Shown here: piece by piece, positions 1 through 41,243 of the stretch
Layout of the letters: each line of letters begins with the position of its first letter
Position numbering within the stretch: position 1 is the stretch's first letter
Assembly (NCBI GenBank): GCA_900299185.1
Contig: OMIV01000248.1
Location: forward strand, 1-64,000
DNA from: Planctomycetaceae bacterium
GTDB lineage: Bacteria; Planctomycetota; Planctomycetia; Planctomycetales; Planctomycetaceae
DNA length: 64,000 nt
Reading direction: 5' to 3'
Notes under the pieces: generated by a model
Told to the model about the DNA's origin: nothing
Databases searched by the model: none
What the model saw: the letters and a program-made list of their open reading frames with translations, nothing else
Translations under genes and position numbers: made by a program

Positions 1-49
1 ATCTACACCTAAGCCTTCGTCGGCAGCGTCAGATGTGTATAAGAGACAG
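1..49 (+). other. Illumina Nextera adapter (non-genomic)
   Basis: Bases 1-8 are the end of the P5 adapter, 9-16 (CTAAGCCT) match the Nextera i5 index S508, 17-30 (TCGTCGGCAGCGTC) are the Read 1 adapter and 31-49 (AGATGTGTATAAGAGACAG) are the Tn5 mosaic end. This is library-construction sequence left on a contig end. It produces the artefact peptides SYTHLTLPTKA (minus strand) and MCIRDR (plus strand). Genomic sequence starts at base 50. Confidence 0.98.
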
Positions 50-1199
50 ACCACACACTCAGCACGATCAGCAGCGGCAGATAGGTCAGACCATAGAACG
101 CCACAGGCAGGCGTTGTTCGCCCAGCGAGGTTGCTCCGGATTGAGCCAACTGAAGTGCGAACTCACGAAAGAACGTCGGCGAGAATTGGTAGGCCATGAT
201 CGTCGCGACCAACATCGCCCACACGTAGCCGCGTTGCTGAGTGCGTTTGGCGATCACTCCCAACAGGCTCGCTTCGATGGCGGCCGCAGGCACAAATACG
301 TGCATCTGCGGAAAGCTGTTGGCGGCCAACACCAACCCAATTAGCATCAAGGCCAGACCAGCCGTAAGGGGCAGGGCGATACTCCACGGATATGGTCGAG
401 TGACTTTGCCGTGAACTCGTTGAAAGACTCGCACCAACGCGTCGACGGCCAACAACACGGGAATCGAAGTCAGCACGAGTCCCAACCCAATCCACGGCAT
501 GGCGATGTGCTCAGCTAAGCTCAACGAGAACACGCCCAGGAACTGAGTGCCCAGCAAGAGGATCGGAAAGAAGCCGAAGATGCGCGGCAGGCGATGGTCT
601 TCGATCATGCAGAAGTCATGCTGATTGACGCTCGCTGCACCAATGGCGAACACGCTCCAGATGGCGAGTGCGGTGATGGGGGCCAACGCTGTTGGAAGCA
701 ACGGGACGACGGCTGCGGCGATGCAAAGCAGGACATACGACGCCAGAAAGATCCAATCAGTCTTCCTCAGGAAGTGCGTAAAGATTCGCTTGGCTGCGAG
801 CGTGCAAAGAGCCACCGCCGACGTCAGCGAGCCCCACAGAATGGTGTGATCGAGTAGTGACGAAGCCGAGAGTTCGTCATCCGGTTGCACCCACTTTAGG
901 CCATGAAAAGTGAGCGGCAGCAGCAAGACCGTAAGAGCCATCAAGCCGGTGCCCGTCTTGCGAAGTCCCAGCGAGTGATAGGTTAGTTGACCAAGCCCAT
1001 GCACGGCGGCCGTGTAGCCCAGCAACACTCCCAGACGCCATCCGATGGAATAAGTCGTCCACTGCGAGGACACGAGCATCAGCGATGATCCCAGCAAGAT
1101 CATCAAGCCAAGGCAGAGCATCCAGCGAATGTTCTGTTCCTGCAGAAAGACATCCAGGAACCGCAACACAAACGGCCTGCGTTCGTTGCTCTCACTCAT
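50..1199 (-). CDS. Polytopic membrane protein, 3' end missing
   Basis: I do not recognise the family. The protein is almost entirely hydrophobic, with about eleven or twelve predicted membrane segments, beginning with IRWMLCLGLMILLGSSLM near residue 25, and short charged loops between them. The start is set at the ATG at 1199 (MSESNERRP), which has GGAG seven bases upstream. Reading further upstream gives only an Arg-rich, non-membrane extension. The C-terminus is lost at the contig end: the last residues of the open frame come from the adapter and are not real. It is probably an inner-membrane protein, but the sequence suggests no transport or enzymatic motif. Confidence 0.7.
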
Positions 1200-1470
1200 A
1201 GTGCGTCTCCGAGTGATGCGATTCAGCAACCAGCCGTTCCACCATGGCCCGAACTTTGAACCGCGACGGACGCAAGACGCAGACTCGCTTCGGATATCAC
1301 GCCGTATTTTTAACGACACTAAGTTTTGGCTCATCGTCAGCATTAACGAGCTGCTCGGAACATTCCGTTACGACACGATTTCGACGACTCTGCAGAGCCT
1401 GCAGACTTACGCGAGACGACGAACGACGAGCACGCCGATTTGATGACTCCGACCAGAGTCGCAAATCACC

Positions 1471-3129: not shown

Positions 3130-5859
3130 TTAAGCGATGTTGGCCCAGCCTTTGTCGGCGGGCTTCCAATCGTGGACTGGTTTGCCGGAAGAGGGCAGCG
3201 CGTTGAGCTTTCCAAGCGTTGTGTCTCCGGCGGGGATGCTTCTCCAACCGGCGGTCGTGCGAATGATGATCGGGATTACGACAACCCCGGCTTCGGCGCG
3301 GCGTTTCATCGCGGCGGGGATTTCGATGTCGTTGCAATAAGTCGACGCTTTGAAGTCGTCGCTGATCAGCAGCAGGATGATGTCGGCCTGGTTGAGCTTG
3401 TCCTCAATGTCTTTGTCGAACTCGGCACCGGGGAGAATCGCATTGTCGTACCATGTGCTGATCAAGTTGCGGCGTTCGAGAAGAGAGAGCGACTTCGACA
3501 ACCTCAGCTGTTGTTTCGAGTCCACGCGCGAGTAGCTGTAGAAGACTCGCAGCGGGCGCTGACTCCCTTCGAAACCAAACTCGGCGGCTGCACGAGCACG
3601 ACCCTTCTGACTGAGAGTCGTCCTTAGAGCTTCATCGAGTGGGGCGTATTCAACGCCTTCCAGCAGCTCGCGCACGGTCGCTTTCATCACTGTGCCGTCG
3701 ATGACTCGCTTGATGGGAGCATCGGGTTCATCGGCATAGAGCACTTCGAGTTCGCTGTAGCTCACCGTGATCTGCGGAGCATTTGGGAACGAGACCAATT
3801 CATCGGGCTTCAAGTGCGGCACGTCGCGTTGGATGACGTCGAAGTCTTGTCGGATCACGGCCAGCATGCGGCGAAGTCCCTCAACCGAGCCCTTGTCTTT
3901 GTTCTTGATCAAGATGCGAATGGTCTTGTCTTGCGGGTCGGCTTTGACGAGCGCGGTGTTGCCTTCGAAATGCAGGATCACGCCGGTCTTCCAACGGTGT
4001 TCTTCGCTGAGCACATGGGTCCGCACGATGAATCTCGGCAGCAACCCCGGCGGCAGCACCGGATAGCGATAGAGAAAGTTCAAGCACTTCGCTGCGTCGA
4101 AGTCACTCGCTGCCTGTGGTTGCTGGGGATCAAGCAGTTCGGGAATCAAGTAGCGCGAGGCGAGTGTCGGCTTTTGCTCCGCAAAAGCAGGTACTTTCGC
4201 AGAGCGAAAGCCGACTTTCTTCGGCTCCTCAAAACTAAAGCACAGCTCGAACTTCTCCATCAGGTTGATCAAGAAGGCGTGCATCTCGGCGGGGTACTTT
4301 TTCGCGTCGAGTTCTTGCGCGAGGTCTGCCGGAGTGAGTTCTCCCTTCCGTGCCGCGAGCGTCTTCGAATTCAGCAGCGTGTAGATGCCAGTCGTCAGCC
4401 AGTGCGGGTTGAGAACGTGCTTGTCGTGCAAGCGCGGGTCGTCGCTGAAGTTGAGAGCGATGCCTAAGCGATGCAGGATCGTGCTCAAGCTCTCTTGTCC
4501 CTGATGTGCTTCTTCGCCGAGCTTGGCACACAACGCGCGATACTCATCGAACGTGATGAAGTTCTTACGACGCGGTTTCGAGAGTTCTTCCTTGATGGCG
4601 AACCAACTGTTGGGGAACGGCTGGCGGATGTCAGGCAGCTTGTCGACTTGCTGCGCGATGGCTTTCCGCAGTTCGTCGATGCCGTGTCCATTCTCGCCCT
4701 TCTTCCCGTCGAGACTGGAGTTGTCGCAGTCGGTTTCAACGAAGCCGACGACCTGCGGAAATTTCTGTTGCAGGGCCGCGCGATTGAGTGCGAAGTGGTC
4801 CTTCTTGATCTTGTTGAGCACCACCAACACCGGCGATTCAGGCGCGAAGCTGGCGATCAATCGCAGCCAGTAATCGGCCTCGGCTTCTTGCTGTCCCGCG
4901 CGGCCATCGAGCACCACCAGATACAGACTGCGGTCGGTCAGAAAGAGTTGATGCGTAGCGTGCATGATCTCTTGCCCGCCGAAGTCCCAGACATGCATCT
5001 GGATCTTGTCTTTCTTGCGACCTGCGACGACTTCCAGCTTGCGGATGCGAATACCCTGCGTGGTGTCTTCGCGCCGCGAGAACGAGTTATCGATCAATCG
5101 CCGCACCAACGACGTTTTGCCGACATCCCCGCGTCCCACGAGGATCAACTTGCCCTCAAACAACGGCCGCCGCTCAGCCTTGGCTCGCGTACGGAAGTAG
5201 TAATCAAGGATCGGCCCGGGCTTCGGTGCGGTTTCGAGATCTCCGTCCCATTCTTCGAATCGCACTCCCAATACCGAAGCCGGCAATTCTAACTCCGGAT
5301 TGTCGTGCAAGAACAACGCCTTGAGGTTCGACAATTCCCGCAGGCTCTCAGGAAGGCTCGTTAGTTTGTTTTCGAAGAGACTGAGGATCCTTAGATTTGC
5401 GAGCTGGCCGATCTCCGGCGGCAAGCTCGTCAGTTTGTTACGGTCTATGTAGAGCACCGAGAGCTTTTGCAAATGTCTAGTTTTAGTTGGCATGCTCCTC
5501 AGTTGGTTCTGCGAGAGGTTGAGATACGTGAGATTTTCAAGTTGTTGAATCTCCTGCGGTAGTGCTTGCAATTTGTTGTCAAAGAGGAATATCGAAGAGA
5601 TTTTTTTGAGCTGCCCGATCTCAGGGGGCATAAGTGTCAGCCCGAGATTACTGATGGCGAGATAGTCGCGGCCATCGCGTGCAGCTCTGGCGATGCGAGC
5701 TTGAGCTTCTCGGTAGGCAGCGGCGGCTTTCTTATCAGCGGACGTGGCGGCGGGAGCGGGCATGCGAGATGTTCTCGGGGCGGTGGCGAACGCGAGCAGC
5801 GGCGGAGCGGCCAAACGTGGAATGCTCTGGCTCGACAGAGCAGTTCGAGTCATCGGCAC
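3130..5859 (-). CDS. Roco protein: LRR-Roc-COR-TIR
   Basis: 909 residues from a GTG at 5859; ATG at 5853 or 5763 are alternatives, and the Ala/Pro-rich first 40 residues give little support to the longest form. Six or so leucine-rich repeats span residues 65-200. A Ras-like Roc GTPase follows (235-425) with P-loop GRGDVGKTS (242-250), switch II DFGGQE (292-297) and NKIK (349-352) at the G4 position. A COR dimerisation region covers about 430-740. A C-terminal TIR domain (768-909) begins VFYSYSRVD and carries TYCNDIE with Glu846 at the NADase catalytic position of TIR_2 proteins. Roco proteins are dimeric G-protein switches and TIR domains often cleave NAD+, so a ligand-triggered NADase is plausible but inferred. 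No other defence gene is adjacent. Residues 549-565 are encoded by a palindromic repeat. Confidence 0.9.
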   Translation of the reverse strand: MPMTRTALSSQSIPRLAAPPLLAFATAPRTSRMPAPAATSADKKAAAAYREAQARIARAARDGRDYLAISNLGLTLMPPEIGQLKKISSIFLFDNKLQALPQEIQQLENLTYLNLSQNQLRSMPTKTRHLQKLSVLYIDRNKLTSLPPEIGQLANLRILSLFENKLTSLPESLRELSNLKALFLHDNPELELPASVLGVRFEEWDGDLETAPKPGPILDYYFRTRAKAERRPLFEGKLILVGRGDVGKTSLVRRLIDNSFSRREDTTQGIRIRKLEVVAGRKKDKIQMHVWDFGGQEIMHATHQLFLTDRSLYLVVLDGRAGQQEAEADYWLRLIASFAPESPVLVVLNKIKKDHFALNRAALQQKFPQVVGFVETDCDNSSLDGKKGENGHGIDELRKAIAQQVDKLPDIRQPFPNSWFAIKEELSKPRRKNFITFDEYRALCAKLGEEAHQGQESLSTILHRLGIALNFSDDPRLHDKHVLNPHWLTTGIYTLLNSKTLAARKGELTPADLAQELDAKKYPAEMHAFLINLMEKFELCFSFEEPKKVGFRSAKVPAFAEQKPTLASRYLIPELLDPQQPQAASDFDAAKCLNFLYRYPVLPPGLLPRFIVRTHVLSEEHRWKTGVILHFEGNTALVKADPQDKTIRILIKNKDKGSVEGLRRMLAVIRQDFDVIQRDVPHLKPDELVSFPNAPQITVSYSELEVLYADEPDAPIKRVIDGTVMKATVRELLEGVEYAPLDEALRTTLSQKGRARAAAEFGFEGSQRPLRVFYSYSRVDSKQQLRLSKSLSLLERRNLISTWYDNAILPGAEFDKDIEDKLNQADIILLLISDDFKASTYCNDIEIPAAMKRRAEAGVVVIPIIIRTTAGWRSIPAGDTTLGKLNALPSSGKPVHDWKPADKGWANIA
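4166..4215. repeat. Palindromic repeat inside the Roco gene
   Basis: 22-base arms at 4166-4187 and 4194-4215 match at 19 of 22 positions around a 6-base loop. The core CTTTTGCTCCGCAAAAG resembles the core CTTTCGCTCCGCGAAAG of the intergenic repeat at 12070-12179. It is read in frame as residues 549-565 of the Roco protein. Confidence 0.7.
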
Positions 5860-6221: not shown

Positions 6222-9200
6222 CTATTCGACGTCGATCCACATCGTCAGATGGGGCAACTGCTGATGTAACGGCGATTGCAGCCACACTTGCCAATAACCC
6301 GGCTCGACACCCGACAGATCAAGCGAGTCAACAGCCAGCGGCACGCGCACGCTCTCATGCGGCGGGACTTCGAGCGGAACCAACTTCGCATCGGCTGCCG
6401 GTTCGAGCTTCACGTGCAGCTCGCGGACCTTGAGTTCTCGCCGCAGCGTCCAAGAGCCTTCGGGGATCTGCACGGTCACGGGCTTGTCAGAAGTATTACG
6501 CAGGCTGAATTCGAACTTCGCTGGCGAGGGCTCACCGGACTTGAGCGTGAACTCGTTGTTGATGCCCGCCCAATCGACGAACAGTTCCAGCGACGCGTGA
6601 TCGAGTGCGTTCTTGTAGCCCGTCGCGCGATGCACCTTCAGCTTGTCGACGGGATAGCTGAGCGACAGCAGCGGAGTCGCCTCGTCCGCTGACACCTTCA
6701 CGGCAAGAGCACGCTCGAAGTACCCGACATGCTCGTGCCACACGATGAAGGAGTGCGTGCCGGGCGGCAGCTTTTCGATGTCCATGTCGAAGCGACCGTC
6801 AGCATCGGTGATCGCGGCGAAGGGGTGATCAAGCAGCAGCACATGGGCACGTTTCTGCGGAAAAATGTCGCTGCGAATGATTCGCGGCAGTTTTTCCACA
6901 TGCTGCACCGAAGCCGCCGGAGCCGACTCGGTCTTACCCGGTGCTACGATGATGTTGAAAGCCTGATTCGTCACGGATCCGAAATGGAAATTGTCGGACA
7001 CTTTGAGGCCGGCGGCGGACAGAGTCAGCGGCTGCTTTGCCAGCATCAGAAACGCTCGCGGCACGAACCGCTCGGCTTCAGTTCTTAAGACCATCGGCTG
7101 GGTCGGAATCGGAGTCGGCTGCCAACCTACCAGAGCCTTCTGCAAGAACACAAAGGTGTTCGCGATACCTCCGTTGTTACCGATCAACACCGACTCATCA
7201 CGTGCCTTACGCGGATCAAACTTCGCCGGGTTCTTCGCTCGCTCGGCCTCAAAGTTCGCGACGTCCTCTGGCCGAGGAGCCTTCAAACGCCACGGGTAAT
7301 TCCGCGAGCGGTCATAGATCGGAATCGGCGGCATCTTCGGGACGTTGCCTTCGATCTTTACAACGCCTCGCAACCGACCTTTCAAAGGAACAGCCGCCGC
7401 CCCGACGCTGCTCGACTTACTCTTGGCAGCGGGCTTCCCAAGCAGCCGTTGTAAGTCTTGTTCCAGATCCAAAATCTGCTTCTTAAGCCGCTGCACTTCG
7501 ACATCAGATACCGAGCCGGGTTGCTTCTCATTCGACTCATTCGCGATATCAAGCAGCGTCTTGTTCAACGCCAAGAAGGTCTCGACGCGTTTGATGAGCA
7601 GCTCATTCGACTTCTGCAGGAACTCGGGAGTGATCGACTGACCGAGCACTTGCGAAGCCTCGTGCAGAACGAGTTCATGCTCGGCCTGCGTCGCGTCGAT
7701 CATCTGCTTGAGCTTCTTCAACTCCAGTGGCGAGACCGATCCGGCTTTGATGCGGTTCTGTCGCTCGCCTGCCGCCAAGTCCTTCACTGCTTGCTCAGCC
7801 GCCGCTTGAGCGAAGCGTTCCCGAGCCGGTCCTTTCACAGTCTCGACGAACTGCGGCATGCGACGCTTCGCGACGATGTCCGGCAAGCTCACGACCACTT
7901 GCTGACCGTCCCAAGCGAATGACAACTCCTCGTCATACTTTGCGAGCACCGCTTCGAGCGCATCACCGAGCGGTACGTTGTCGACATCCACCGTGACCGG
8001 CATGTTCTTCGTGAGCCCGCGCGACTTGAGGCTCTCTCCATCGAGTTCATGTTTGACCTTTGCTTGTTCGCACACGGCTTTGATCGCGTCTTGCAGAGAC
8101 ACGCGCGCCTCATGCAACGTGACCTTCGCTTGCAGCGGTTCGGGGTAACGATCGAGCCACACTTTGAGCGGGGTCGTTTGGATGCGCACGAGATCAAGCA
8201 CAGTGGGTTGATGACCTACGGCATCGAATCGCAGTTTGAAGAAGCCGCGCTCCAGCGGCTCTAAGCGAAACATTCCGTCCTTGTCGGTCTTCGCTCGCGG
8301 CATCGAACCCGGAGTTCGCGAGCGTTCATCAATCATCAGCGGGTTGATGTAGCGCCACATCACGTCGACTTGAGCATTCACCAGCGACTGGCCGTCTTGG
8401 TCCACAATCCGCCCGGTAATTGAGGTGATCTTGTTAGCGACGATATCGCCCAAATCGACGGACTGCCCCTTACCAATCGCGACTTCAAACGTGCTCGTCG
8501 CATAGCCCAAACCCGGCAAGATGCGGATCTCGTAACACCCCTTCTTCAATGTCGTGAGGTCGATCGTTCCCGCGACGCTCGTGTTCGAGATGATCGTCGC
8601 CTCCGGATTGGGATAGACGGTCAGACCGCCATAGCCGCCGCGTGCCAGCTTCAGTTTCGGCACGACTTCAATGCGTCCTCCGCCCATCGGAATCTTGTTC
8701 TCATTGAGGACTCGGCCAATGACCTGCGTCTGCGGTTCCGCCTTCGCGAACTTCTCCTTCCATGCCGCTTCCGCCGCGCGACCGACTTCATCCGGCAGCA
8801 CCTCGGGAATTCTGATGACCGGGACATCCTTCGCTCCGGCAGCAGTCAGCAGCTCACCGATCTGCTGTGTAATCAAAGTTCCATTCGGGATCGCGATCAC
8901 CTTGCGTTGATGATCGAGGAACAATCCCGTCGGCATCCCGCGCACCTTGAGCGCGTCATGCAGCTCGCCTTCACCCGATTCATTCTCGGCATCGATCACG
9001 ACTGCGAACTGAGCTTTGCTCTCATCGGTAATGTGGCTCGCGTAGTCGGCATAGCGCGGTCGATGCACGGCCAGAATCTTTAAGCCGTGCGGCTCGTAGG
9101 TCTCATGCAAACGATTGAGCGCCGTGAACGTCGCCACGCTTTCCGAGTTCCAGCAATTCCAGAACACGATCAACGTGACCTTGCCCTCAAGCTGCTTCCA

Positions 9201-11828
9201 ATCGAGCTTTGATTTCGACAACCACTGGAAGCTGTCGCCGCGGCAGTCATCGTCACAGTCGCCATTCACCGTCTTCGGCAGTCCGGGCAACACGGTCAGA
9301 GGTTGATCGCTCGGCGGTGCGCTGAAGTTCGATTGCAGTCGCAGCAGCGATTCGAGTGGTCGAGGACGCCAACTAAACTTCGCCTTCAATTCCGGTTCGA
9401 GTGTTTGCCACCACGGATCATTGAAGTAGCTCGCACCACGACTCAGGTCGACCACTTCGACGCCATAGTTGGGATACTTCACGTGCCGCGAGACGTTGCC
9501 CAAGTCGATGCCTTGCTTCGTGAAGTCATGCTCGAACGGCGAGGGATCTTCGCGCGGGTCGAGCCGATGCGACCCTCCATATCCGACGATGCTGTGATTT
9601 CCCATCTGCCAACCAACCGCTTTGGAATCCGCTTCGATCAGCTTCACGGTCATGCGTTCGTCAGAGAGCGCGAGCCGGTGACCATCATTCGCATAGAGAT
9701 AGTTCGCTCGCTGAATCGTGCGCGGAGCCCAGATGTCCTTCCGCACTTCCACAAGGTCCGACAGCTTGCATTCCCAACTCACGCGACCGTCATAGAGCTG
9801 TTGCACTTCAAGCGGCAGATAACCGCGACTCGGACACACAAAGGCCGACCACTTCCAACTCGGGTTCTTCTCCGAGGTCGCTTCGAGCCGCAGTCCATCG
9901 AGTCCATTCAATTGAGTCGCCGTTGTCTTCACGGTCTTCATCGAGACCGCTTTCAGGAAGCCTTCCAACCCGCCGCCGACCGAGTTCCAAAACAAGTTCC
10001 GAGGTTCGTACTGCTGACAATGATCTTGCACGCTGCCGATCGTCAGCCGATTCGCGTCGCGCTCCCATTGAAAGAGTTGCTCCCCATCAAACCCCGTTGA
10101 CCATGTTTCGGCCCGCAACTGCTTCGTGTTCGTCGTCGCGTTATGAGACTCAAAGTCGATGCGCCATTTCTGGCCGTCCGATTGCCACCCAAAGCGACCG
10201 AGCGCCTTCTGCAAGTCGGGCTCGCCTTTGATGAATGGGTCAGCTCGATCAACGACGTTCTCGCGATCCACCAGCATGTGACCGCCGAAGAACTCCGACG
10301 CCGCACGACGAATCTTCATCGCCAACGTGTTGCCCGACTCATCGAGCCGAACTTTGACCTCAGTCTGCTGGCCCGCTTCGAGCGACACGTTCTCAAAGAC
10401 AACTTCACGATGACTGACTTCATCACCGGGCGAGCCATATGCCAACTCGGGAGCTCTCTCGCTGACCTTAATCGTCACGCTCGTCGTCGCCTTGGCGCCG
10501 GGCTTGAAGTACTCGATCCACTTGCCGCCGTCGCTCGAATATTCGCCGCGTCCCTCGACCGACTCCACATCTTTCACTTCGCCAAAAACATTGACCTCAT
10601 ATCGCTCTGGCTCAGGTAGGTTGTTCCAACGATGAACCACACCAATCAAGTTCTTGGGCGGGACATGATCCTTCCCAAAGTCCAATTTGGGTTTCGCAAT
10701 CACGGTGCCGTTGGGACTCCACCAAACCTCACCCGCATCTGTCACCTTGCACAGCGCGACGAGCTCCACCGTCGTGCCCGGTGGCACGCGTTGCGAGTAA
10801 GTCTTCTCAGCCGCTTCGGACTTCGTTGCCGACATCGAACTAATGGTTGTTGCAACGGCAATTAAAACTCCCAGCAGCAGAAGGCTCGGAGTCCAACTCG
10901 ATCGCCCCTCGATCCCGCTTGAGCGACTCATCAATCGCCTCACTCTCTGTAACAACGAACCACCATCCGCCGACATTGCGAGCGACACTTGCGGGCCGCG
11001 CAACTCTTCGAGCGCGACGAGCGCCTTCGCATACGACAACTCATCGCCGCAGACCTGCACGGCGAGATCATCGCAACAATGCTCGCGCTCGATGCGGATG
11101 CGCCGCGAGAGCCACCACACCGCCGGGTGATAGAACAACAACGTCTCGATCACGGACTGCAGCAAGTTGATGAGATAGTCATTGCGTCTGACATGCGCGA
11201 GCTCATGCGCCAACAACGCTTCGAGCTGCTCAGTGCTCAACCCAGACATCGCCGTCGCGGGCAACAACACAATCGGCTTGAGCCAACCAATCACGGTCGG
11301 CACTTCGACCAAAGCCGACTCGACCAATCGCCCCGGCTTCGAAATCGCGAGCCGTTCTAACAGCCGCGCAAACAACTCTTGCAGAGCGGCACGCGCCGAT
11401 TGCTGGGCCTGCTTCCTCAACCGTCTGACACCGAACCAACCCCACAACATCCGCGCCGACAGCACGCTCACTCCCAGCAACCAGACGCCGACGATCTTCG
11501 GTAATAAAGGTTGCACGTTGTTGGCGATGCGCTCGCGCGACCAAGCGTCTGAAGAGGCCGTGCTGTCGGCTGAAGGGACAGCAATGGGGGCGCCTTCTTC
11601 AATAGCACTGCTAGGACGAAGAGGACTCATAGGACCGATGGGTCTTGTTGGTTCTATGAGTCCGATGTCCTCAACCGGCTTCGCCACAGCGGGGTCAGGC
11701 ACTTCGGAAATTCGGAATTGGGCGGCCTCAGTCGTCGCCATGGGCAGAGGCTCTGCTCCGCCCAATTTCGAATTTTCGAAGTGCCTGACCCCTCTTTCGG
11801 CAAGCGTCAAAACCGGAGCTACCGCCAT
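6222..11828 (-). CDS. BlaR1/M56 sensor peptidase with giant C-terminal sensor region (main part)
   Basis: 1868 codons after an in-frame TAG. The M56 metallopeptidase domain has a membrane helix near 112-132, HELAH at 208-212 (zinc and catalytic Glu) and EREHCCDD near 247-254 (third ligand). A further helix follows (WTPSLLLLGVLIAVATTISS). The long exported part includes a thioredoxin/TlpA-like domain (VTLIVFWNCWNSE, only one Cys of CxxC), a carboxypeptidase-regulatory-like beta domain (VIGRVLNENKIPMGGGRI), an STN-like segment (ARVSLQDAIKAVCEQAKV) and a C-terminal Ig/cupredoxin-like region. BlaR1 proteins sense a signal outside the cell and trigger cleavage of BlaI repressors. The BlaI-type gene just upstream fits. 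The true protein probably starts at 11975; two palindromic repeats encode residues 13-46 and about 55-70. Confidence 0.85.
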   Translation of the reverse strand: MAVAPVLTLAERGVRHFENSKLGGAEPLPMATTEAAQFRISEVPDPAVAKPVEDIGLIEPTRPIGPMSPLRPSSAIEEGAPIAVPSADSTASSDAWSRERIANNVQPLLPKIVGVWLLGVSVLSARMLWGWFGVRRLRKQAQQSARAALQELFARLLERLAISKPGRLVESALVEVPTVIGWLKPIVLLPATAMSGLSTEQLEALLAHELAHVRRNDYLINLLQSVIETLLFYHPAVWWLSRRIRIEREHCCDDLAVQVCGDELSYAKALVALEELRGPQVSLAMSADGGSLLQRVRRLMSRSSGIEGRSSWTPSLLLLGVLIAVATTISSMSATKSEAAEKTYSQRVPPGTTVELVALCKVTDAGEVWWSPNGTVIAKPKLDFGKDHVPPKNLIGVVHRWNNLPEPERYEVNVFGEVKDVESVEGRGEYSSDGGKWIEYFKPGAKATTSVTIKVSERAPELAYGSPGDEVSHREVVFENVSLEAGQQTEVKVRLDESGNTLAMKIRRAASEFFGGHMLVDRENVVDRADPFIKGEPDLQKALGRFGWQSDGQKWRIDFESHNATTNTKQLRAETWSTGFDGEQLFQWERDANRLTIGSVQDHCQQYEPRNLFWNSVGGGLEGFLKAVSMKTVKTTATQLNGLDGLRLEATSEKNPSWKWSAFVCPSRGYLPLEVQQLYDGRVSWECKLSDLVEVRKDIWAPRTIQRANYLYANDGHRLALSDERMTVKLIEADSKAVGWQMGNHSIVGYGGSHRLDPREDPSPFEHDFTKQGIDLGNVSRHVKYPNYGVEVVDLSRGASYFNDPWWQTLEPELKAKFSWRPRPLESLLRLQSNFSAPPSDQPLTVLPGLPKTVNGDCDDDCRGDSFQWLSKSKLDWKQLEGKVTLIVFWNCWNSESVATFTALNRLHETYEPHGLKILAVHRPRYADYASHITDESKAQFAVVIDAENESGEGELHDALKVRGMPTGLFLDHQRKVIAIPNGTLITQQIGELLTAAGAKDVPVIRIPEVLPDEVGRAAEAAWKEKFAKAEPQTQVIGRVLNENKIPMGGGRIEVVPKLKLARGGYGGLTVYPNPEATIISNTSVAGTIDLTTLKKGCYEIRILPGLGYATSTFEVAIGKGQSVDLGDIVANKITSITGRIVDQDGQSLVNAQVDVMWRYINPLMIDERSRTPGSMPRAKTDKDGMFRLEPLERGFFKLRFDAVGHQPTVLDLVRIQTTPLKVWLDRYPEPLQAKVTLHEARVSLQDAIKAVCEQAKVKHELDGESLKSRGLTKNMPVTVDVDNVPLGDALEAVLAKYDEELSFAWDGQQVVVSLPDIVAKRRMPQFVETVKGPARERFAQAAAEQAVKDLAAGERQNRIKAGSVSPLELKKLKQMIDATQAEHELVLHEASQVLGQSITPEFLQKSNELLIKRVETFLALNKTLLDIANESNEKQPGSVSDVEVQRLKKQILDLEQDLQRLLGKPAAKSKSSSVGAAAVPLKGRLRGVVKIEGNVPKMPPIPIYDRSRNYPWRLKAPRPEDVANFEAERAKNPAKFDPRKARDESVLIGNNGGIANTFVFLQKALVGWQPTPIPTQPMVLRTEAERFVPRAFLMLAKQPLTLSAAGLKVSDNFHFGSVTNQAFNIIVAPGKTESAPAASVQHVEKLPRIIRSDIFPQKRAHVLLLDHPFAAITDADGRFDMDIEKLPPGTHSFIVWHEHVGYFERALAVKVSADEATPLLSLSYPVDKLKVHRATGYKNALDHASLELFVDWAGINNEFTLKSGEPSPAKFEFSLRNTSDKPVTVQIPEGSWTLRRELKVRELHVKLEPAADAKLVPLEVPPHESVRVPLAVDSLDLSGVEPGYWQVWLQSPLHQQLPHLTMWIDVE
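11621..11663. repeat. Palindromic repeat inside blaR1-like gene (second element)
   Basis: GGACTCATAG (11623-11632) and CTATGAGTCC (11654-11663) are perfect complements, with partly pairing bases inside (GACC ... GGTT). It is read in frame and encodes Pro-rich residues of the loop before the M56 domain (IEPTRPIGPMSPLR). Confidence 0.6.
11691..11792. repeat. 102-bp palindromic element inside blaR1-like gene
   Basis: 35-base arms at 11691-11725 and 11758-11792 match at 33 of 35 positions; the outer end reads GGGGTCAGGCACTTCG. The element is 102 bp, exactly 34 codons, and keeps the frame. It encodes residues 13-46 of the downstream open frame, in the periplasmic loop between the second and third membrane helices. 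It looks like a REP- or MITE-type element. Confidence 0.8.
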
Positions 11829-39644: not shown

Positions 39645-41243
39645 ATGAACCCAGAATCTGAATCGTCAATCGCAGTGGCGGTGGCAGAATTGAAGACGCT
39701 TGGTGCGCGGATCGTGGAGGATGCGGGACGCGTGCAATTGGTGGATCTCTCTGAGTCCCAATTCGCCGATGAGCACACGCACTTGCTGCAAGCGTTTCCC
39801 GAAGTTCGCAGCCTGATGCTCGCTGACACAGAGATCACAGATGCCGGACTCAAGGACATCGGTCAGTTAGCGAGTCTCGAAACGCTGGATCTCTCGACCA
39901 CTCAAGTCACTGATTGTGGGCTGCAGCATCTGGCCGGGCTGAAGAAGCTCGACATGCTGATCTTGGGAGGCTGCCGCATTCGAGATGCCGGACTCGCGGA
40001 ACTTAGTAAGCTGCCGATGCTGCGCATGCTGATTCTGTCGGACACCGATATCACCGATTCTGGCCTGGCTGAGATTGGCGAGCTGACTCAACTGCGAGAT
40101 CTGAATCTCGATTACACCAAAGTCACCGACGCAGGCATGCCGCACCTCGCCAACCTTAAAGAGTTGGAGTTGCTGGGGCTGGTGTTTTGCAAAGGCGTCA
40201 CTGATGTCGGTCTGATGTTCCTCAAGTCGCTCGCGAATCTGCACGTGCTCGACGTGGGCACAACAATGGTGACCGCTGAAGGCGTCTCGGACTTGCAGGC
40301 GTACTTGCCCGATTGCTTCATCGCCTTTACTCCCGACCCGCTGCTGGAAGCCGTCGAGAAATACAACGGTGACTTGGTCACGGCGCTCAATGCGATTGGC
40401 AAAGTGGAACTCGGCACAAACGGCGAGATCACCAAGTTGCGAGTTGATCAGGCGCAGCTCACCCGAGCCGGGCTCGAATACCTGAAGCGCTTCGATCAGC
40501 TCGAAGATCTGGGGCTCTACCATCATCGCCAATTGCCGGATGCTGGCCTCAAGCACTTGAGGCACTTGAAGTATCTGAAGAAGTTGGGACTGCTCGGCAC
40601 AAACATCACTGAAGAGGGACTGCGTTACATCGCCGACCTTCCGTCACTGACAGTGCTCAACTTGGCTTACACGTCCGTGACCGACCGCAGCTTGGAGCAA
40701 CTCAGTAAGCTCACCCAATTGGAAGAACTCTTCCTGGGGGACACGTTGGTGACAGATGGTGGATTGGCTCACCTCGGAGCGCTCTCCAAGCTTAAGGGGT
40801 TGGGGCTGAGCGGGACTCGAGTCCAAGGGCATGGTCTCAAGCACCTGTCGAAGCTGACGTCGCTGCAACGGATCGGGCTAAGCGGGACGATGCTCAATGA
40901 CGATAGCGTCCATCATGTCGCGAGTTTGCAAAGTCTGACGGCGTTGAGTTTGCGGGGTACGAACATCTCTGACCGATGCTCACACCATCTGGCGCAACTG
41001 ACTCAATTGCAGGTCGCTTGGCTGGATCGGACTCACATCACAGAGAACGGATTGCGCTGGTTGAGCGAATTGCCGCACTTAAAGGAACTGGGGCTGCGAA
41101 ACTGCCCGGTTGGGGATGGATTCTTGGCGATCGCTGCGTCGATGAAAGAACTCACCGTTCTGAATATCTTCGGGACTTTGATATCCGACGCCGCCGTTTC
41201 TGCACTGAAGACCTTGCTGCCGCAGTGCGAAATCATTCAGTAG
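39645..41243 (+). CDS. Cytoplasmic leucine-rich-repeat protein
   Basis: 532 residues with no signal peptide or membrane segment. About eighteen 23-24-residue repeats of the type LxxLxLxxTxITDxGLxxL(xxL) occur in two arrays (about 50-225 and 275-530). An approximately 50-residue non-repeat spacer (DPLLEAVEKYNGDLVTALNA) separates them. This LRR type resembles the cysteine-containing/RI-like class abundant in planctomycetes. Probably a protein-interaction scaffold; partners unknown. It lies upstream of an FHA-domain gene on the same strand. Confidence 0.8.
   Translation: MNPESESSIAVAVAELKTLGARIVEDAGRVQLVDLSESQFADEHTHLLQAFPEVRSLMLADTEITDAGLKDIGQLASLETLDLSTTQVTDCGLQHLAGLKKLDMLILGGCRIRDAGLAELSKLPMLRMLILSDTDITDSGLAEIGELTQLRDLNLDYTKVTDAGMPHLANLKELELLGLVFCKGVTDVGLMFLKSLANLHVLDVGTTMVTAEGVSDLQAYLPDCFIAFTPDPLLEAVEKYNGDLVTALNAIGKVELGTNGEITKLRVDQAQLTRAGLEYLKRFDQLEDLGLYHHRQLPDAGLKHLRHLKYLKKLGLLGTNITEEGLRYIADLPSLTVLNLAYTSVTDRSLEQLSKLTQLEELFLGDTLVTDGGLAHLGALSKLKGLGLSGTRVQGHGLKHLSKLTSLQRIGLSGTMLNDDSVHHVASLQSLTALSLRGTNISDRCSHHLAQLTQLQVAWLDRTHITENGLRWLSELPHLKELGLRNCPVGDGFLAIAASMKELTVLNIFGTLISDAAVSALKTLLPQCEIIQ

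Follow-up and report, generated by a model that had tools for sequence, protein, structure and literature searches.

Bacterial proteins that combine leucine-rich repeats (LRRs), an AP-GTPase (Roc) and a COR domain with C-terminal effectors were described by Kaur, Iyer, Burroughs and Aravind (eLife 2021, 10:e70394, PMC8195603, Fig. 6D). In this LRR-AP-GTPase(Roc)-COR class the LRRs are N-terminal and evolve rapidly, the C-terminal domains are of at least 24 kinds, TIR being among those named, and a function in countering invaders was predicted (PMC8195603). A 2019 review describes all prokaryotic Rocos as LRR-Roc-COR proteins (PMC6337361), and TIR-bearing Rocos have been noted in Trichoplax and a ROCO-TIR protein in Chondrus (PMC11378527, PMC4104024). 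No experiment on any TIR-Roco was found in the open-access literature.

The gene analysed here lies in a 64,000-nucleotide stretch of planctomycete DNA (the window). Its product has in common with the class of Kaur et al. the order LRR, Roc, COR and variable C-terminal effector and the occurrence of several copies per genome, and no structural difference between the two was found. The class, TIR effectors included, has already been described as predicted counter-invader proteins; the idea put forward in an initial annotation of the locus is therefore not new (PMC8195603). What is added here for the TIR subfamily is a set of invariant residues, a spread over at least eight phyla, a stable fusion and a stand-alone layout. 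We propose, with a probability of roughly 0.55, that the protein is an immune or programmed-death receptor, encoded by a single stand-alone gene, in which a GTPase gates a TIR NADase. The features of the gene are the following.

3130..5859, minus strand: ORF of the LRR-Roc-COR-TIR protein, 909 aa (ORF reading, Pfam, homologues)
3130..5763, minus strand: probable true coding sequence from ATG 5763, 877 aa (disorder in the model, homologue start)
5290..5662, minus strand: leucine-rich repeats, about residues 66-190, sensor candidate (Pfam LRR_8/LRR_4/LRR_14; fastest-evolving part)
4807..5151, minus strand: Roc GTPase domain, residues 237-351 (Pfam Roc, 2.2e-29; invariant motif residues in 44 proteins)
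4132..4614, minus strand: COR-A domain, residues 416-576 (Pfam, 8e-40)
3661..4089, minus strand: COR-B domain, residues 591-733 (Pfam, 2.5e-25)
3564..3639, minus strand: low-confidence COR-TIR linker, residues 741-765, probably flexible (AlphaFold2 pLDDT <50 for 741-766)
3133..3563, minus strand: TIR domain, residues 766-909 (Pfam TIR_2 772-868, 8e-11; PADLOC ThsB model 772-909, 2.5e-35; TIR-only model)
3322..3324, minus strand: codon of the predicted catalytic Glu846 (invariant in homologues; aligned with AbTir E208)

The reading frame is intact on the minus strand, running from a GTG at 5859 to 3130 (909 codons). Because residues 1-36 are disordered in the AlphaFold2 model and a 39%-identical homologue begins at a point corresponding to about residue 35-40, ATG 5763 is probably the true start, giving a protein of 877 aa; the residue numbers, including that of Glu846, are those of the long 909-aa form. 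A chance ORF was ruled out by the Roc, COR and TIR domains common to 43 homologues, and a chance ORF or a pseudogene by dN values well below dS in every domain in the comparison with the closest relative (dN/dS values of 0.06/0.79 for Roc, 0.17/1.45 for COR, 0.19/1.15 for TIR and 0.46/1.58 for the N-terminus). No sigma-70-like promoter was found between positions 2900 and 6300, a pattern that planctomycete promoters may not fit, and no RNA family was found within the 64-kb window.

The domain anatomy is certain, the order being LRR-Roc-COR-A-COR-B-TIR with each domain above the Pfam curated cut-offs. The initial annotation was thus right in its LRR-Roc-COR-TIR architecture and in its coordinates, to which the minus strand, absent from it, is added here. 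The full-length AlphaFold2 model, built with the 44 homologues, reached a pLDDT of 85.0 and a pTM of 0.82, with low-confidence stretches limited to residues 1-36, 548-560 and 741-766. The third stretch links COR-B, the dimerisation module in known Roco proteins, to TIR, so that the TIR domain is probably tethered flexibly. The top Foldseek matches of the full model were the Chlorobium tepidum LRR-Roc-COR protein (6hlu), its Roc-COR (3dpu), LRRK1 and LRRK2. Roc is followed directly by COR, as in the Roco family (Pfam; fold match to 6hlu and 3dpu), and the P-loop and switch motifs are likewise intact.

These Roc motifs are the P-loop GRGDVGKT (residues 242-249), DFGGQ (292-296) and NKIK (349-352). 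The alignment of 44 proteins has 772 well-filled columns, 35 of them invariant; G242, G247 and K248 of the P-loop, T267, G269, D292, F293, G295, Q296 and N349 are the same in all 44. The guanine-specificity motif reads NKIK here and not NKxD, its N being invariant and the D present in 25 of the 44 homologues, and this departure from NKxD would lower the expectation of strict guanine specificity.

Within the TIR domain, the only invariant columns are F773, L791 and E846. W803 and D805 are 98% conserved among the 44 proteins, position 841 is Y or F in every row of the alignment, and E846, which lies in the pattern S-x-x-F-x-x-S-x-Y-C-x-x-x-E, does not vary among the 44 homologues or among the 48 TIR segments from the related loci. 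The NADase activity of AbTir requires S140, D167, W204 and E208 (PMC11374754), and in a profile alignment, from which the equivalent residue numbers were derived by hand, these correspond to S775, D805, Y841 and E846. The family spacing, Y-C/I-x-x-x-E, places one residue more between the aromatic residue and the Glu than the classic WxxxE. Since the stand-alone ThsB-like TIRs of relatives have the same longer spacing, it is, on the sequence evidence, the mark of a TIR subfamily and not a defect peculiar to the Roco proteins.

A model of the TIR domain alone (pLDDT 89.7) matched a plant RPP1-type TIR (RPPT-TIR) with a Z of 15.0 over 130 residues at 2.3 A, the SPARTA TIR-APAZ (Z 15.0), RUN1 (14.5), SARM1 (13.4) and AbTir (13.3, with 126 residues aligned at 2.7 A). 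The matches are mostly NAD-cleaving TIRs, yet MyD88 also scored 13.8, and because scaffold TIRs such as this one reach that score, the modelled fold by itself does not demonstrate catalysis. The TIR fold is accompanied by the features of TIR NADases, namely the catalytic Glu of helix C, the Asp of strand B and the aromatic residue, and we regard it as likely, from residues and model together, that the domain is an active enzyme. The initial annotation had assumed a complete Roco switch joined to a TIR that keeps its Glu 846 in TYCNDIE. Both parts held, in that Roc, COR-A and COR-B are present with invariant P-loop and switch residues, and the Glu, residue 846 of the 909-aa reading, stands in a predicted NADase active site that is intact (invariant in 44/44; TIR-NADase fold).

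To follow the distribution of the family, an alignment of five homologues was run against 84,980 prokaryotic genomes, and 80 loci were kept. A fused TIR was found by BLAST in 43 of them; the contrast with loci classed as lacking TIR is approximate, the classification resting on BLAST to the window's TIR and at least one such locus (L057) having a Pfam TIR. Roc, COR-A, COR-B and TIR_2 pass in all 44 aligned proteins, the window's included, and Pfam LRRs in 40 of the 44. TIR-Rocos occur in at least eight phyla (Planctomycetota, Verrucomicrobiota, Acidobacteriota, Chloroflexota, Armatimonadota, Bacteroidota, Pseudomonadota and SAR324). The Roc-COR tree joins the window protein first to that of a planctomycete MAG (L035; 86% over Roc-COR) and next to that of an Acidobacteriota MAG (L034), with high support for both groupings; the remaining planctomycete TIR-Rocos lie far from it. 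The full architecture is present in about 8 of 150 genomes of its own family, some copies being broken, and among 294 evenly sampled Planctomycetota genomes COR and TIR were found together at E 1e-30 only in its own genome and one other. The fusion is thus rare and its distribution patchy, with old transfer probable and errors of MAG binning a possible alternative. One gene copy (L123, G123:C335, about 8109-10260), 62% identical where intact, carries frameshifts and has lost most of the Roc core, which looks like decay.

Rapid evolution of the N-terminal LRRs, a trait of the class of Kaur et al., was also observed here. Median identities were 75% for Roc, 68% for COR, 59% for TIR and 46% for the N-terminus in 105 (non-independent) TIR-Roco pairs with a Roc identity of >=60%, and repeat number varies: at a Roc identity of 92%, L050 carries 5 LRRs and L058 carries 14. 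Between the window protein and L035 the identities were 90% for Roc, 77% for COR, 73% for TIR and 53% for the N-terminus (LRR region). As dN remains below dS in all parts of this pair, the candidate sensor is evolving fast, rather than being under proven positive selection. The TIR distances follow those of Roc-COR (Mantel r 0.872, 0 of 2000 permutations); by this measure the switch and the TIR effector are co-inherited and the fusion is stable within the clade of the window protein, and the r of 0.87 ruled out repeated recruitment of the TIR in that clade.

Other combinations were seen among the relatives. The C-terminal effector varies as in the described class, being a TIR in the 44 proteins and EAD11 in L102; a paralogue (C44) in the window's own genome has a TIR that belongs to a different subfamily. 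The Roco protein with the EAD11 C-terminus (L102:10643-12385) and one with an N-terminal AAA/STAND-like ATPase (L079:732-5324) are in line with a swapping of effectors and inputs. Ten Roc-COR-TIR proteins have no LRR by pattern (L068, L074, L075, L082, L083, L088, L089, L094, L101 and L109); they come from Saprospiraceae/Lewinella, gammaproteobacteria and SAR324 and may have an N-terminal sensor of another kind. The window's own genome holds 22 TIR domains above the cut-off, those of the next three proteins among them. The paralogue, its second LRR-Roc-COR-TIR protein (L127:5544-7913, G000:C44), is 32% identical to the first and, because its TIR is of the classic WCxxE subfamily, TIR has probably joined Roco at least twice. 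Two more proteins of the same genome suggest several sensor-GTPase-TIR designs in one planctomycete: a TIR-WD40 protein that matches the window's Roc domain (L128:3665-7189, G000:C249), and a WD40-Roc protein that ends in a TIR and lacks COR-A (L129:4189-7401, G000:C330).

The gene stands by itself: upstream of it, at a distance of about 360 bp, is a gene for an M56 peptidase, and a gene for an M14 carboxypeptidase converges on it. Its neighbours are housekeeping genes, and at 1e-10 a PADLOC match was obtained for 1 of the 29 other window genes, to the candidate family PDC-M51A; apart from this candidate match, the claim of a single gene with no defence genes nearby stands for the window. The 43 TIR loci have no recurrent family of neighbouring genes, the same method recovering the conserved neighbours of cyanobacterial Rocos, and a two-gene or operon system was thereby ruled out. 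The initial annotation had also proposed to survey the neighbourhoods of homologues for defence islands. No enrichment near TIR-Roco genes was found by PADLOC, the matches at 1e-40 amounting to about 6 of 111 near genes (within 1.2 kb) and about 6 of 129 far genes (4.5-10 kb), counted by family name and as single models, not systems. Given the lack of a recurrent neighbour and of any enrichment of defence genes around it, the gene looks stand-alone. Its GC content equals that of the window (0.568 and 0.564, with GC3 alike), so a recent mobile insertion is unsupported, and no full-length copy was found on sequenced plasmids or phages.

As to the surroundings, the M56 neighbour (6222-11828, minus strand) encodes a 1868-aa BlaR1-type peptidase with carboxypeptidase-regulatory domains. 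It has a relative in the one same-genus genome, adjoined there by neither Roco nor M14, and an even larger relative (3084-codon frame) was seen in the same-genus genome G026 (C83). An LRR-rich protein of 532 aa, with about 13 repeats by pattern and no GTPase link, is encoded at 39645-41243 (plus strand). Positions 1-49, at the contig start, are sequencing adapter (...TCGTCGGCAGCGTCAGATGTGTATAAGAGACAG), which we take to be the Nextera transposase adapter; because of this adapter the end of ORF 9..1343 (SVSYTHLTLPTKA) is artefactual.

We infer for the window protein a NADase activity, control by GTP, a trigger and a role in defence, which would be connected as follows. The LRRs would sense a trigger, possibly a phage product, and the Roc-COR unit would be a dimerising GTPase switch that, before the trigger arrives, keeps the TIR domains separate or inactive. 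A changed nucleotide state or oligomerisation would then bring the TIR domains together, and the assembled TIRs would cleave NAD+ via Glu846 to ADP-ribose or a cyclic ADP-ribose isomer and nicotinamide, leading to growth arrest or death of the infected cell. Control of the TIR by Roc-COR is plausible, the odds being moderately in its favour, and a role in defence or cell death is slightly favoured; that the role is anti-phage we can only infer. Should the mechanism hold, prokaryotic Rocos, used mostly as models of LRRK2 and lacking a known task, would gain one, the control of an immune NADase. Both GTP control of TIR assembly and bacterial Roco function could then be tested directly in one gene, whose loss-of-function residues (K248, E846) are clear.

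The main variant of the defence or cell-death reading is a signal-making receptor like Thoeris ThsB, which would not itself deplete NAD+ and whose product, a cyclic ADP-ribose isomer, would activate an effector encoded elsewhere. The match of the window TIR to the PADLOC ThsB model (2.5e-35) and the YCxxxE spacing shared with stand-alone TIRs of relatives, up to 40-50% identical, agree with it, as does the aromatic residue at the position of AbTir W204, which is needed for 2'cADPR (PMC11374754), but no partner gene recurs beside family members, and we hold this variant to be rather unlikely. A search of the window's own genome for a ThsA-type STALD domain gave no match, the search control being equally silent. 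Somewhat less probable still is a receptor with the same switch and NADase chemistry directed at a threat other than phages, such as plasmids, predatory bacteria or cell stress. It would fit the lack of any phage or defence-island link in our analyses and the stress laid by Kaur et al. on multicellular and aggregating bacteria (PMC8195603, PMC7159879), but three papers present the tested bacterial TIR systems as serving anti-phage abortive infection (PMC12578639, PMC11984713, PMC12847820).

The TIR could also be a scaffold in non-defence signalling or development, with no NADase role, comparable to Dictyostelium Rocos or Toll-like receptors. Planctomycetes are developmentally complex, which would suit a scaffold, and so would the lack of defence-gene enrichment. 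Roco proteins outside bacteria, moreover, serve chemotaxis and cell division (PMC4104024). However, a pure scaffold needs none of the NADase-critical positions, all of which are conserved here (E846 in 44/44), and a patchy distribution with fast LRRs misfits a core developmental gene; we consider the scaffold improbable and retain the GTPase-gated TIR NADase as the preferred reading.

Among known systems, the top structural and sequence matches of the window protein are the Roco of Chlorobium tepidum and Roco2 of Methanosarcina barkeri (6hlu, 3dpu, 4wnr), of which 6hlu is LRR-Roc-COR and 3dpu and 4wnr are Roc-COR, whereas the window protein adds a C-terminal TIR. With human LRRK2 and LRRK1 it has in common the LRR-Roc-COR core and an effector after COR-B, but the TIR takes the position of the kinase and ankyrin, armadillo or WD40 parts are lacking. 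The TIR of Thoeris ThsB is the best PADLOC match of the window TIR, and Pfam ThsB_TIR is matched by 12 of the 44 homologues; unlike ThsB, the TIR is here fused to a GTPase switch, with no recurring partner gene beside family members. The ThsA effector gene that adjoins in Thoeris was not found in the window, nor was a recurring neighbour at the 43 loci. The TPR-ROCO-TIR protein of Chondrus crispus (PMC11378527), likened by domain order alone, shares the order Roc-COR-TIR but is eukaryotic and has TPR in place of LRR. Plant TIR-NLR and bacterial TIR-STAND receptors follow the same scheme of sensor repeats, NTP switch and TIR, but the window protein uses a Ras-like GTPase (dimeric in known Rocos) instead of a STAND ATPase, and its domain order is reversed, with LRR first and TIR last. 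It is a tentative proposal, with the odds a little against it, that this would be the first GTPase-gated TIR NADase, in which the nucleotide state of an LRRK2-like Roco dimer would directly open or close TIR assembly, a single-gene immune receptor doing the job of a plant TIR-NLR.
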